A stretch of 41,225 nt of DNA from Patescibacteria group bacterium. Its GTDB lineage: Bacteria; Patescibacteriota; Doudnabacteria; UBA920. A program made the translations under genes and the position numbers. The stretch covers positions 1-41,225 of the forward strand of contig JAMDAY010000020.1 of the NCBI GenBank assembly GCA_023484515.1, written 5' to 3'. This document shows, in pieces, positions 11,958 to 35,613 of this stretch (positions are counted from its first letter, which is position 1; the number at the start of each line of letters is the position of its first letter). Below the pieces are notes generated by a model that saw only the letters and a list, made by a program, of their open reading frames with translations, did no database searches and was not told the origin of the DNA.

Positions 11958-13199
11958 TTATCTTGAAAATTCAAAGGTTGAAATAATTAGATTAAAAGTA
12001 TCCACCAAACTTTGAACATGGGAAAGTTGATAATCGGAAACCAAAGAAACAACCATAATTTTATTACCAATAGGTACTATTAAATTCAAATTTGAACCGC
12101 CCTCTCCGTCTAAGTTTTGTTTTAAAGCGGTTTTTCCTCCCATCACCACGCTTTGTTGATCATAACCCACTCCTGGCCAGCTATTTTTTTCAGCCTCCGT
12201 ATTTATCTTAATTGCTTCAGACTGTGATAAAAAATCAGGTGATTGGGTCAGCCAATCTTGGATACTAAGCGATTTTAAATTATCCAATACCATTACTAAA
12301 ATCTTCCCCTGTCCCGGCTCAGACGTCATATTAAAATCATATTGTGGGGTGGTTAAGGTTATTACATTTCCCTCCGGTCTTATCTTCCAATCTCCCGGAT
12401 ATTTAAACTCAAACCCATACTCCTCATTCCGGTAAATTTTCCAATTGTTGGTGTCCAATTCTATAGAAGGGGAAAGCGAAGAAGGGTCGGTAAATTTTAC
12501 GGAAGACAGTATCTGCTCCAGAATTTGCCGGTTTTCCTGGCGGCTAATGGCGCCGGGGATGGCCAGGATTTCTTTTTCCCGCATGTCGGAAAATATGCCG
12601 GAAAGGGCCTGGACCATCATGTTTTCCGCCACCAAAACCCTATTGCCGCTTACGGGAAAGTAATAAACAGTATGCCCACAGCCTTCCACGCCTTCGTAAA
12701 TGGAAAAGCCGGTCAAATTGCCAACTTGATATTTATCTATAAATCCTGGACTAATTTTTAACGTGTCGCCGCTAAAATTTTCCGCCGGCAGATAAGGAGA
12801 CATTTTCCTGGCTGCCTGGGCTGCGGTGCCGTTATAAATTTGGAAAGACGCCTTAAAGTCGGTCAAATTGTCGTAGGTTTGCTCGTCTCCTTTCATATCA
12901 CAGTCGCCGTGGTTCTGGTAAGGGATCTGGTGGCTTAATTCCACCACACCGGACTTTTCAGCCGGTGATAATTTGCTTGGATACTGGAAAGAAAAACCCA
13001 AGTCCTGGTTTTGATAAGTTTTTAAGTCCCCGGCTGAACCGTGGAAGCCGTTTTTTATGGTGCTTAAAATTCCTTCTATGGACACTAATTCCTCCCCTTG
13101 CTTGTAGTCGTCAGCCTGGTAAATAACCAATCCGGCGGCAACCAAAACCGCCGCCCCGACTCCTGCCCACATGTAAAAATGTTTTGTTTTTTGGGTCAT
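11958..13199 (-). CDS. membrane-anchored protein with two PsbP-like domains
   Basis: 413 residues. One TM helix (about 9-28) then an exported part with a duplicated motif: YQNQDLGFSFQYPSKL (63-78) and YRNEEYGFEFKYPGDW (about 256-271). This Y-x-N-xx-GF-x-F-x-YP pattern is the PsbP-like domain often found on CPR surface proteins. Function unknown. Between rplI and pyrG on the same strand. Confidence 0.65.
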   Translation of the reverse strand: MTQKTKHFYMWAGVGAAVLVAAGLVIYQADDYKQGEELVSIEGILSTIKNGFHGSAGDLKTYQNQDLGFSFQYPSKLSPAEKSGVVELSHQIPYQNHGDCDMKGDEQTYDNLTDFKASFQIYNGTAAQAARKMSPYLPAENFSGDTLKISPGFIDKYQVGNLTGFSIYEGVEGCGHTVYYFPVSGNRVLVAENMMVQALSGIFSDMREKEILAIPGAISRQENRQILEQILSSVKFTDPSSLSPSIELDTNNWKIYRNEEYGFEFKYPGDWKIRPEGNVITLTTPQYDFNMTSEPGQGKILVMVLDNLKSLSIQDWLTQSPDFLSQSEAIKINTEAEKNSWPGVGYDQQSVVMGGKTALKQNLDGEGGSNLNLIVPIGNKIMVVSLVSDYQLSHVQSLVDTFNLIISTFEFSR

Positions 13200-13265
13200 G
13201 GTAACCCCGTCCCGATATAAGGATACATCCTGACCTGCGGATTTGCGGATCCGTATATATCCGTT

Positions 13266-13888: not shown

Positions 13889-14103
13889 CCCCGCCTGCGC
13901 TTTCCACCCCCTCTTGTGTCATTCCGGACAATTTGTAAGATATCAAATTGATCCGGAATCCAGCCTGTGCTAATTTTTAGATCCCGGACAATTTTTACGG
14001 CCAAGGATATGCGTCTACGTAAAAATTTCCGGGATGACAGGAAATTGCTTATAAATAAGGCAAGAGAAAAATAGTGAAAACGCAGGCGGGTCAGGGTTTT
14101 CCT
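13889..14103 (-). repeat. palindromic MITE-like element, copy 1
   Basis: About 215 bp. Outer inverted ends are CCCGCCTGCGCTTTC and CCCGCCTGCGTTTTC; inside are two TGTCATyCCGGA arms (about 13917 and 14039) that bound two hairpins separated by CCAGCCTGTGCTAATTTTTA. A homologous copy in the opposite orientation is at 35431-35613. It fills the gap between ftsX and rplI and carries no credible gene; the 96-codon frame across it is only the translated repeat. Confidence 0.75.
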
Positions 14104-20956: not shown

Positions 20957-21058
20957 TGTCATTGCGAGCCCGAGTGTATCCGAGGGGCGAAGCAATCTTT
21001 ATCTACCTGACAGATTGCCACGACGTCCAGTTAAAGCCCTGGATTCCTCGCAATGACA
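20957..21058. repeat. TGTCATTGCGAG dispersed palindromic element
   Basis: 102 bp bounded by perfect 12-bp ends TGTCATTGCGAG (20957-20968) and CTCGCAATGACA (21047-21058), with inner arms GCAATCT / AGATTGC. The same end sequence is a familiar interspersed repeat in many environmental bacterial genomes. It lies between the CYTH gene and thyA. Confidence 0.75.
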
Positions 21059-24955: not shown

Positions 24956-25069
24956 ATGGAAAATATTACGACTGCAATGGACAAATATTCTTCCAATTCT
25001 GCTTCTAAGGCCCTTAAGAGCCCGGCTGCCACTAAGACAACCGAGCGCCTTTTGCGGCTGGAAGCATAA
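24956..25069 (+). CDS. possible 37-residue peptide or small RNA
   Basis: ATG to TAA encoding MENITTAMDKYSSNSASKAL and a basic tail. Upstream are TTGACA (24941-24946) and a weak TATTAC (24964-24969) that overlaps the ORF, so the promoter and ORF cannot both be right; the unit may instead be a non-coding RNA of roughly 150 nt ending at the terminator at 25104. Confidence 0.25.
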   Translation: MENITTAMDKYSSNSASKALKSPAATKTTERLLRLEA

Positions 25070-25103
25070 CAGGATCCCCTCTCTAAGATTTCCCTAAATG
25101 CAA

Positions 25104-25128
25104 CCTCCCGCAAACCGGGAGGATTTTT
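25104..25128 (+). terminator. intrinsic terminator on the plus strand with no clear gene upstream
   Basis: CCTCCCG (25104-25110), loop CAAAC, CGGGAGG (25116-25122), then ATTTTTGTT. The U-run is only on the plus strand, so something is transcribed rightward from the dcd-rsgA gap. Confidence 0.75.
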
Positions 25129-27566: not shown

Positions 27567-28865
27567 ATGGGAAATAAGCTAAAAAAAACCTTGTCTTTGC
27601 TGGCAGGGGCGATATTTTTTGCCCTGCTGTTTTTACTGTCGCAATACGATTATTTATTTTTCCATACCCTGGTGGAATCTGCAATTATTGTCATTGGGTT
27701 GTTAATTTTTACCATTGCCTTCAACGCTAAAAAAATTGTCAGGAACGACTTTTTCCTCTTTTTGGGCGTTGCTTTCCTGTCTAGTTCCGTCCTGGAATTT
27801 TTCCATACTTTAACCTACAAAGGCCTAAGCGTAATCCCGGGCGTGGCAACCAATGTCCCTACCCAGTTATGGCTGGCCGGCCGTTACGTGCTGGCCGCCT
27901 CCTTTTTGGCGTCCCCGCTTTTTATAGGAAAGGAACTTAAGCCTAAAAATAAAGTCCTTTTGTATTCGGTATTTTTTTTCGCGACCGCCGGGCTACTGCT
28001 CTCCATCTTGACCGGCATTTTTCCCGACGCCTACATTGAAGGCGGCGGATTGACTTTATTTAAGGTTGTCAGCGAATATGTTATTAGCTTAATTTTTGTT
28101 GCGGCCATTGTATTATTCTCCCGAAAAAAACAATTTTTTGACAATGCTATTTTTAACGACATAATACTTTCCCTGGCTTTTAGCGCCTTAGCGGAAATAT
28201 CTTTTACGCGCTACGTCAGCGTATACGGATTCTTTAACACCTTAGGGCATTTGTTTTTAATTTTGGCGGGGTATTTCACTTATAAAGGATTAATCAGCAA
28301 AGCTTTAACCGATCCTTACAGTTTGCTGTTCCGGGAATTGAAGGACGCCAACCTCAAATTGACAACGCTTGCTTCTACGGACGGGCTGACAGGGCTGTAT
28401 AACCGCCGTTTTACCTTAGAAGAAATTGGCAGCCAGTTTGAACGCTCAATTTTAGCCGGCAGGCCCTTTAGCATAGCAATGCTGGACCTGGATAATTTAA
28501 AGGAAATTAATGACAAATTCGGCCACAGCGCCGGAGATGCGGTTTTAAATTACGTGGGAAAAATTTTGCAAAAATCCTTCCGCAGTACCGACATAGTGGG
28601 GCGTTACGGCGGCGACGAATTTATTGTTTGCCTTTTGGACACCACTGCCGAAACCGCGCAAAATATTTTAAATGCGGTTGCTGCAACTATAAAAAATGAA
28701 CCAATCTCTATTGGCCAACTCAGCCTGCCTATTTCCATCAGCAGCGGGGTCTGCGGATTTTCCGGCCAAAAAAGTTTGTCCGAACTAATAAATGCAGCGG
28801 ACAAAAACTTGTTGGAAAACAAAAAGAAAAGCAAAGTTTTATCCGCCCCAATGACAAATATCTAA
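27567..28865 (+). CDS. MASE3-GGDEF diguanylate cyclase
   Basis: 432 residues. The N-terminal 240 residues form seven or so TM helices with FHTLVESAIIVIGLLIF, the MASE3 sensor pattern. A short linker leads to a GGDEF domain with LTGLYNRR, active site YGGDEF (347-352) and an inhibitory-site RSTD (339-342) five residues upstream. It should make cyclic di-GMP from GTP in response to a membrane or ligand cue. AAGGA precedes the ATG. No EAL, HD-GYP or PilZ protein is seen in the window, so the effector is unknown. Confidence 0.9.
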   Translation: MGNKLKKTLSLLAGAIFFALLFLLSQYDYLFFHTLVESAIIVIGLLIFTIAFNAKKIVRNDFFLFLGVAFLSSSVLEFFHTLTYKGLSVIPGVATNVPTQLWLAGRYVLAASFLASPLFIGKELKPKNKVLLYSVFFFATAGLLLSILTGIFPDAYIEGGGLTLFKVVSEYVISLIFVAAIVLFSRKKQFFDNAIFNDIILSLAFSALAEISFTRYVSVYGFFNTLGHLFLILAGYFTYKGLISKALTDPYSLLFRELKDANLKLTTLASTDGLTGLYNRRFTLEEIGSQFERSILAGRPFSIAMLDLDNLKEINDKFGHSAGDAVLNYVGKILQKSFRSTDIVGRYGGDEFIVCLLDTTAETAQNILNAVAATIKNEPISIGQLSLPISISSGVCGFSGQKSLSELINAADKNLLENKKKSKVLSAPMTNI

Positions 28866-28916
28866 TCTGGCCGGTTTAAATACTTGGGGTATTTTAACAG
28901 TAAATATCCATTCCTG

Positions 28917-28945
28917 TTGACGTTATATGCTTAAAGTGGTATCCT
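28917..28945 (+). promoter_or_regulatory. promoter of the candidate structured RNA
   Basis: TTGACG (28917-28922), 17-bp spacer, extended -10 TGGTATCCT with TATCCT at 28940-28945. Predicted start at about 28952. Confidence 0.6.
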
Positions 28946-28951
28946 GCTATC

Positions 28952-29213
28952 GTTTTCCAATTCTTGGAACGGCGGGCCTGTGATTGCCTTTTCCTTCCTA
29001 GAAAAGGTCAGCAAATCTATACCGGGGGTAGGGTTTGCTGCCGTGTCGGGCGGGTCATGGGTCCGTCGATTTTTTACGGAGGATTTTTATCGAATTTTTT
29101 ATACAGCAGTCATCATAGCCTTCCCATGCGGGTAATTCTCATTGCATTTGAAACCCGCTTGGAAAGAAAACCGGGGAGCGCTCCGCGTCTAAATTGCGCG
29201 CCCCGGTTTTTTA
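28952..29213 (+). ncRNA. candidate structured non-coding RNA of about 260 nt, unassigned
   Basis: A gene-free stretch with a good promoter and a strong terminator. Seen pairing: GGCGGGCCTGTGA (28971-28983) with TCATGGGTCCGTC (29055-29067), 13 consecutive pairs counting G-U, extendable by a C-G and two wobbles. Inside this stem are hairpins CCTTTTC/GAAAAGG (28987-28993, 29001-29007) and CAGCAAA/TTTGCTG (29009-29015, 29034-29040). A small 5' hairpin TTCCAA/TTGGAA and a 3' hairpin GCGGGT/ACCCGC (29128-29133, 29153-29158) flank it. No long ORF. It lacks visible signatures of RNase P RNA, SRP RNA, tmRNA or the c-di-GMP riboswitch. Confidence 0.6.
29167..29212 (+). terminator. intrinsic terminator of the candidate RNA
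   Basis: AAAACCGGGG (29167-29176) / CCCCGGTTTT (29201-29210), an inner GCGC pair, and a following T-tract TTTATTTTT. Confidence 0.85.
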
Positions 29214-29356
29214 TTTTTCAATGAATAGCTGGCAAGGCAAATGGGTTCACAATAATACAAAAAACAGTATCATCGCTGGAAGATTTAAAGGGGTCTCTAA
29301 GGCAGCGAAGCGATCTATTCTGCTCTATAGCCAGAAATTAAAGCCGGTTGGCATGT

Positions 29357-29542
29357 TTACCGCCATAGCATTCCTTTGAATTCGCTATTGACCATGAGCG
29401 GGACTCCCCGCAGGGACTGGATGCGCGCGGAAATTTCCTTAACCGGACAACGGTGTTCGCGGTTGCTGCGGGTGGCGCAATGCGCGCAAAGCGAATGCAA
29501 CTGGGAAACAATATTAATTTTTACTTTTTCCGCCTCGCTCAT
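29357..29542 (-). CDS. small Cys/His protein directly downstream of lexA
   Basis: 61 residues. C19-x2-C22 and H30-x-C32 (SLCAHCAT, EHRCPV) look like a zinc knuckle, and the C-terminus SLRGVPLMVNSEFKGMLWR is distinctive. No family name recognised. It starts 28 bp after the lexA stop on the same strand, so it is probably cotranscribed and SOS-regulated. Confidence 0.65.
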   Translation of the reverse strand: MSEAEKVKINIVSQLHSLCAHCATRSNREHRCPVKEISARIQSLRGVPLMVNSEFKGMLWR

Positions 29543-30963: not shown

Positions 30964-31057
30964 GATGACGCACATCTGGGATAAGTGGTTTTTAAATTGC
31001 CGGATAATAATCACCATCAACCAAACTTAAGGAAGATTGTCCCAGATGTGCGTCATC
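30964..31057. repeat. 94-bp element with 18-bp perfect inverted ends
   Basis: GATGACGCACATCTGGGA (30964-30981) and its exact complement (31040-31057). A degenerate extra arm, GATGGCGCACATTGGGGA, lies just to the left (30933-30950), so two related insertions or one duplicated end may be present. ATCCG-rich words and a CCCGCC-AGA-GGCGGG hairpin (31146-31160) fill the rest of the gap. Confidence 0.75.
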
Positions 31058-35430: not shown

Positions 35431-35613
35431 ACCCGCGCTTCCGCTGCCCGTCCCTTGCCTTATTTGCCAGCAATCCCCTGTCATCCCGGAACTTTGACGT
35501 TACGTTGGAGTATCCGAAATCTAAAACTAAGCACAGGCTGGATTCCGGATCAATTTGATATCTTGCAAATTGTCCGGAATGACACAGGAGGCGGAGAGAA
35601 GCGCATGGCGGGG
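35431..35613 (+). repeat. palindromic MITE-like element, copy 2
   Basis: Core 35477-35588 is bounded by CCTGTCATCCCGGA and TCCGGAATGACACAGG, with the hairpin ATTCCGGA-CAATTTG / CAAATTG-TCCGGAAT. The sequence AGCACAGGCTGGATTCCGGA and outer flanks CTTGCCTTATTT and GCGCATGGCGGGGC match copy 1 (13889-14103) in opposite orientation. Confidence 0.75.

Follow-up and report, generated by a model that had tools for sequence, protein, structure and literature searches.

A candidate structured RNA gene of restricted distribution behind a diguanylate cyclase gene in a member of Doudnabacteria

Background

Intergenic genes for trans-acting small RNAs of bacteria, which form a kind rather than a family, have a promoter-like site, an intrinsic terminator and no downstream gene. 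Their transcripts are structured, measure 100-300 nt and carry a single-stranded 5' seed. Among the RNAs that have their own models, 6S RNA (RF00013) is a stand-alone, strongly paired molecule of the 200-nt class, shaped as a rod with a central bubble, and SRP RNA is marked by a GGAA-type tip with a symmetric loop. Riboswitches for c-di-GMP precede the same-strand gene that they regulate. Strong folds are also found in DNA repeats of the REPIN and MITE kind. In the genome described here these are dispersed, nearly strand-symmetric cloverleafs measuring about 100 nt, in which a long stem closes three branches and few junction bases are unpaired.

Little is known about regulatory RNAs in bacteria with small genomes, most of which are uncultured. 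Here we analyse the region 28952-29213 of a 41,225-nt contig (JAMDAY010000020.1, assembly GCA_023484515.1), which we call the window, from a Patescibacteria group bacterium of the lineage Doudnabacteria. Judged by sequence, the region resembles intergenic small RNA genes in its promoter-like site, its terminator-like hairpin, the lack of a downstream gene and the predicted size and structure of its putative transcript. It differs from them in that its main structured part, domain 1, is a nearly fully paired junction, and in that no relatives were found. A literature search returned no paper on an RNA of this region.

Results

Position of the region and its neighbours

The region occupies a gap (28866-29356) between the stop codon of a plus-strand MASE3-GGDEF gene and two minus-strand genes, lexA and a small gene that follows it, which converge on the region (Table 1). 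This agrees with the preliminary description, which had placed the region behind a diguanylate cyclase gene with nothing following on the same strand: Pfam identifies the upstream gene as MASE3-GGDEF, and the plus strand is clear. Because this gene was not found in any of 21 family relatives, and a protein scan of contigs from other genomes gave only distant GGDEF genes as best matches, it was likely acquired horizontally. The gene order 3' of lexA and the small gene is not shared either and differs among the relatives examined.

Table 1. Features of the locus and of the dispersed repeats of the genome (positions without a prefix are those of the window)
Feature	Position	Strand	Basis or remark
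MASE3-GGDEF diguanylate cyclase gene	27567-28865	+	Pfam; upstream neighbour
Promoter-like site, TTGACG (28917-28922), 17 nt, TATCCT (28940-28945)	28917-28945	+	TG before -10 (extended -10)
5' hairpin, 6 pairs, 3-nt loop	28955-28969	+	predicted fold
Domain 1, closed four-way junction	28970-29068	+	predicted fold
Domain 1 closing stem, 15 contiguous pairs	28970-28984/29054-29068	+	predicted fold
Domain 1 hairpins, three	28986-29008, 29009-29040, 29041-29053	+	predicted fold
Alternative terminator-like hairpin before U6 run	29049-29067	+	terminator prediction
U-rich linker, mostly unpaired	29069-29119	+	predicted fold; about 50 nt
U6 run just 3' of closing stem	29070-29075	+	sequence; possible early termination point, RNA of about 122 nt
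3' hairpin, large loop, weak	29120-29166	+	z -1.97 for 29105-29167
Terminator-like hairpin, then T run	29167-29210	+	z -4.0; inverted repeat; A/T tracts on both sides
61-aa gene after lexA	29357-29542	-	convergent neighbour; conserved in family
TGTCATTGCGAG repeat copies	20957-21058; L196:1037-1139; L164:6270-6378; L215:11445-11533; others		
Repeat family with ends TGTCATTCCGGA / CCGGGATGACA	13917-14039, 35479-35584; L186:18628-18733; L179:2653-2749		
Repeat family TGTAGGGGC...GCCCCTACA	elsewhere in genome		11 pairs
Repeat family CAACCTCTC...GAGAGGTTG	elsewhere in genome		3 pairs

The promoter proposed in the preliminary description (TTGACG-17-TATCCT) is present, with a TG before the -10 box in addition, and transcription is predicted from it to start near 28952. 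The site has 9 of 12 consensus matches and its -10 box is weak. Since promoter-like sites are not rare here (9 in a stretch of 1.9 kb, 3.8 expected), it is weak evidence when taken alone. The strong terminator claimed for the other end was recovered on folding, as a hairpin with a 14-nt loop. This hairpin is nearly symmetrical and can therefore serve both strands; either the convergent genes or the GGDEF gene could account for its presence. We considered whether the alternative terminator-like hairpin next to the U6 run might switch with the closing stem and rejected this, because the U run is shared by both states and the junction is far stabler.

Fold of domain 1

Domain 1 folds at -51.2 kcal/mol, as compared with -33.3 +/- 3.0 kcal/mol for its dinucleotide shuffles (z = -5.97; none of 200 was as stable), and its centroid coincides with the minimum-energy fold. 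The opposite strand reaches -28.5 kcal/mol (z -2.44), which leaves a difference of 22.7 kcal/mol between strands. The structured RNA of the preliminary description is thus strongly folded, and specifically so on the plus strand. Its long enclosing stem was confirmed as well, with 15 pairs instead of 13 and three enclosed hairpins instead of two; the further 3' hairpin is present, its significance being weak (z about -2). A single base is unpaired at the junction, and the parts left exposed in the folded RNA are three loops, a bulged A and the U-rich linker.

The energy difference stems from the G-U pairs, which number 9 out of 41; A-C mismatches are absent from the pairs. If a palindrome decayed by strand-neutral transitions, half of the resulting mismatches would be A-C on the plus strand, and the chance that all nine are G-U is about 0.002. 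Together, the G-U pairs and the strand difference indicate RNA of the plus strand as the folding molecule. The z-score alone is unremarkable here, because the window is rich in strong intergenic hairpins; these are, however, mostly similar on both strands. When all 99-nt stretches of the window were folded at a step of 5, domain 1 was the stablest, and only 10 positions, domain 1 among them, differed by 18 kcal/mol or more between the strands. In the remaining 1.26 Mb of the genome, 9 of 83,763 stretches combined an energy of -45 kcal/mol or lower with such a difference, a set that may include rRNA or coding sequence.

A second strongly strand-asymmetric fold was noticed on the minus strand at 25016-25114, between rsgA and a dCTP deaminase gene (-47.7 vs -24.3 kcal/mol, z -4.8). 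It has no match in Rfam and could be another structured RNA or a leader.

Search for relatives

Nothing credible was found by blastn in the genomes of the family (22), the order (49, which also served as the class-level set) or the phylum (380); matches there and in phages, plasmids and viral contigs were short and T-rich or due to chance. A covariance model (R1), built from the single sequence and its structure, recovered only itself in the same 22, 49 and 380 genomes. It had no match at the lexA loci of relatives and none around 80 other GGDEF genes, which are distant relatives of the one studied here. Within its own genome domain 1 is single-copy by both R1 and blastn. Relatives below roughly 65-70% identity are missed by blastn and by a single-sequence model. 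Because no relatives were found, the GGDEF gene is absent from the family and the surroundings are not shared, the locus would be young or lineage-specific, or else diverged beyond detection.

Known RNA families

At gathering thresholds, Rfam 15 matched nothing but a single tRNA in the whole window. None of 4227 Rfam models matched the plus strand of the region even at E<=10, and lax thresholds produced only chance matches on the minus strand, over the terminator hairpin. The Infernal check against Rfam that the preliminary description had proposed thus leaves the region unassigned, in agreement with its statement that signatures of RNase P RNA, SRP RNA, tmRNA, 6S RNA and c-di-GMP riboswitches are missing. 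As for the housekeeping RNAs of this organism, RNase P RNA is encoded on a different contig, 6S RNA was not found above cut-off in the 22 family genomes, and SRP RNA (RF00169) had no match in the genome itself at E<=1, whereas 13 of 14 control genomes gave one under the same search. The SRP RNA may be missing from the assembly or diverged.

The RNase P RNA has a peculiarity of its own, outside the window. Within it, at L141:1001-1291 (G000:C9, about 12921-13211), there is a GIY-YIG gene of 83 codons (Pfam PF01541, E 3.4e-15), flanked by the complementary arms CCCCGCTCTTTGGATTGTAT / ATACAATCCAAAGAGCGGGG and lying just 5' of a AGGAAAGTCCG motif. The gene apparently occupies the loop of an arm that resembles P3. 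We found nothing in the literature that resembles such an arrangement in bacteria.

Dispersed cloverleaf repeats

The genome contains about 20 copies of a dispersed element with terminal inverted repeats, TGTCATTGCGAG...GAAGCAATCT...AGATTGCTTC...CTCGCAATGACA, which is about 75-140 nt long and folds into a cloverleaf. Its copy in the window has no match in Rfam. Three more dispersed families came from a scan of part of the genome for cloverleaf folds (Table 1). A separate element of 94 nt at 30964-31057 is MITE-like, its 21-nt ends being 95% complementary (GATGACGCACATCTGGGATAA), and recurs almost unchanged on a different contig (L197:13002-13095).

Discussion

We propose, with moderate confidence, that the region is a stand-alone, lineage-restricted gene of a non-coding RNA on the plus strand. 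The promoter-like site, the 5' hairpin, the junction and the terminator follow each other in fitting order. The fold, its strand specificity, the single-copy status and the absence of matches to RNA families and proteins are direct results of computation. The preliminary description is supported in part: the region is placed as a stand-alone transcript would be, has no Rfam assignment, resembles no recognised protein gene and is strongly structured, specifically on the plus strand; the transcript itself, and its length of 260 nt, are candidates. We regard it as a candidate orphan of the known kind of intergenic small RNAs.

In our model, RNA polymerase with a sigma-70-type factor would start near 28952 and the transcript would fold into a rigid four-way junction protecting its 5' part. 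Termination at the U6 run would give an RNA of about 122 nt, and termination near 29213, at the terminator, one of about 260 nt. Such a small RNA would regulate targets or bind a protein in trans, using its hairpin loops and U-rich linker. Transcription, length and trans action are what we infer. Action in trans seems most likely because there are no internal loops resembling ligand pockets, no downstream gene and no coding frame. A ribozyme or riboswitch is not suggested, since domain 1 is almost wholly paired and lacks a pocket, and no gene follows.

One conceivable target was dismissed. The loop CUUCCUA might block Shine-Dalgarno sites, but its pairing with start regions does not exceed that of shuffled loops, and only about 4 of 32 start regions in the window have a Shine-Dalgarno-like motif; such targeting is therefore unsupported. 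At several gene starts of the window a TATAAT-like box lies about 10-20 nt ahead of the start codon, which, together with the scarcity of Shine-Dalgarno-like motifs, suggests that leaderless mRNAs may be frequent here.

Other readings of the region have to be weighed against an RNA gene. That it is a small or decayed protein gene is very improbable. A 66-codon open stretch (28935-29132, GGPVIAFSFLEKVSKSIPGVGFAAVSGG...) does read protein-like, yet it has neither an ATG or TTG start nor a clear ribosome-binding site, and the other open frame (28964-29224) runs through the terminator. Codon scores are -0.09 bits per codon for the former and -0.28 for the latter, as compared with +0.11 for the 5th percentile of the real genes of the window. 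One blastn match, 87% over 38 nt, links the region to a distant genome's membrane-protein gene and shares the phase of the 28964 frame, but it is short and T-rich, and no match was found in Pfam, PHROGs, NCBIfam, PDB, phages, plasmids or viral contigs. Neither frame therefore looks like coding sequence. We give no more credit to domain 1 being a diverged 6S RNA, SRP RNA or c-di-GMP riboswitch. The models find neither 6S nor SRP RNA where they were sought, so both may be diverged in these organisms, and a gene for c-di-GMP synthesis adjoins the region. Against this stand the empty plus-strand Rfam search and the architecture: domain 1 is a four-way junction without the central bubble of 6S RNA and without the tip of SRP RNA, and the region lies behind the cyclase gene with nothing downstream to regulate.

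Two further explanations, both unlikely in our view, deserve closer attention. Domain 1 could be a solitary or diverged copy of a REPIN- or MITE-like mobile cloverleaf repeat; whether maintained or in decay, it would then be a DNA element and no RNA gene. Several TGTCATTGCGAG copies are indeed about 100 nt long with a closing stem and three branches, as in domain 1, whose middle hairpin (CAGCAAATCTATAC) resembles by eye the GAAGCAATCTTTTC of the repeats. Yet a model built from 12 copies of the repeat (R2), which scores the window copy at 85 bits, gives domain 1 nothing by default and only 4.5 bits, at the middle hairpin, with filters off. The terminal repeats TGTCATTGCGAG / CTCGCAATGACA and dispersed copies are both absent, and the strand difference of domain 1 compares with at most 12.5 kcal/mol in the listed repeats; membership in the cloverleaf repeats is for these reasons not supported, though domain 1 may have descended from them or converged with them. 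The other explanation, which we find improbable to a similar degree, takes the region for a structured 3' UTR of the GGDEF mRNA: transcription would read through from 28865 to 29210, and the junction would shield the message from 3' exonucleases and have no independent role. The GGDEF gene is on the same strand at a distance of 50 nt, the interval from its stop codon to 28917 holds no good terminator, its only hairpin being weak, rich in A/U and followed by no T run, and the internal promoter is weak. Moreover, family relatives have neither the gene nor the RNA, so that the two may have come or arisen together. What speaks against a 3' UTR is the -35 and extended -10 directly 5' of the structured part, and the fact that the RNA is untraceable around the other GGDEF genes, distant as these are.

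Returning to the RNA gene, it is doubtful, though conceivable, that it represents a new class of stand-alone structured RNAs, built around a near-perfect four-way junction and confined to one small-genome lineage, possibly a mobile cloverleaf repeat that gained a promoter and a terminator.

Conclusions

Of the housekeeping RNAs, RNase P RNA is detected in this genome by the usual models, whereas 6S and SRP RNA are not. The well-defined, strand-specific fold of domain 1 offers a concrete target for RNA-seq. If its descent from the cloverleaf repeats were true, the locus would be an example of selfish DNA that became an RNA gene.
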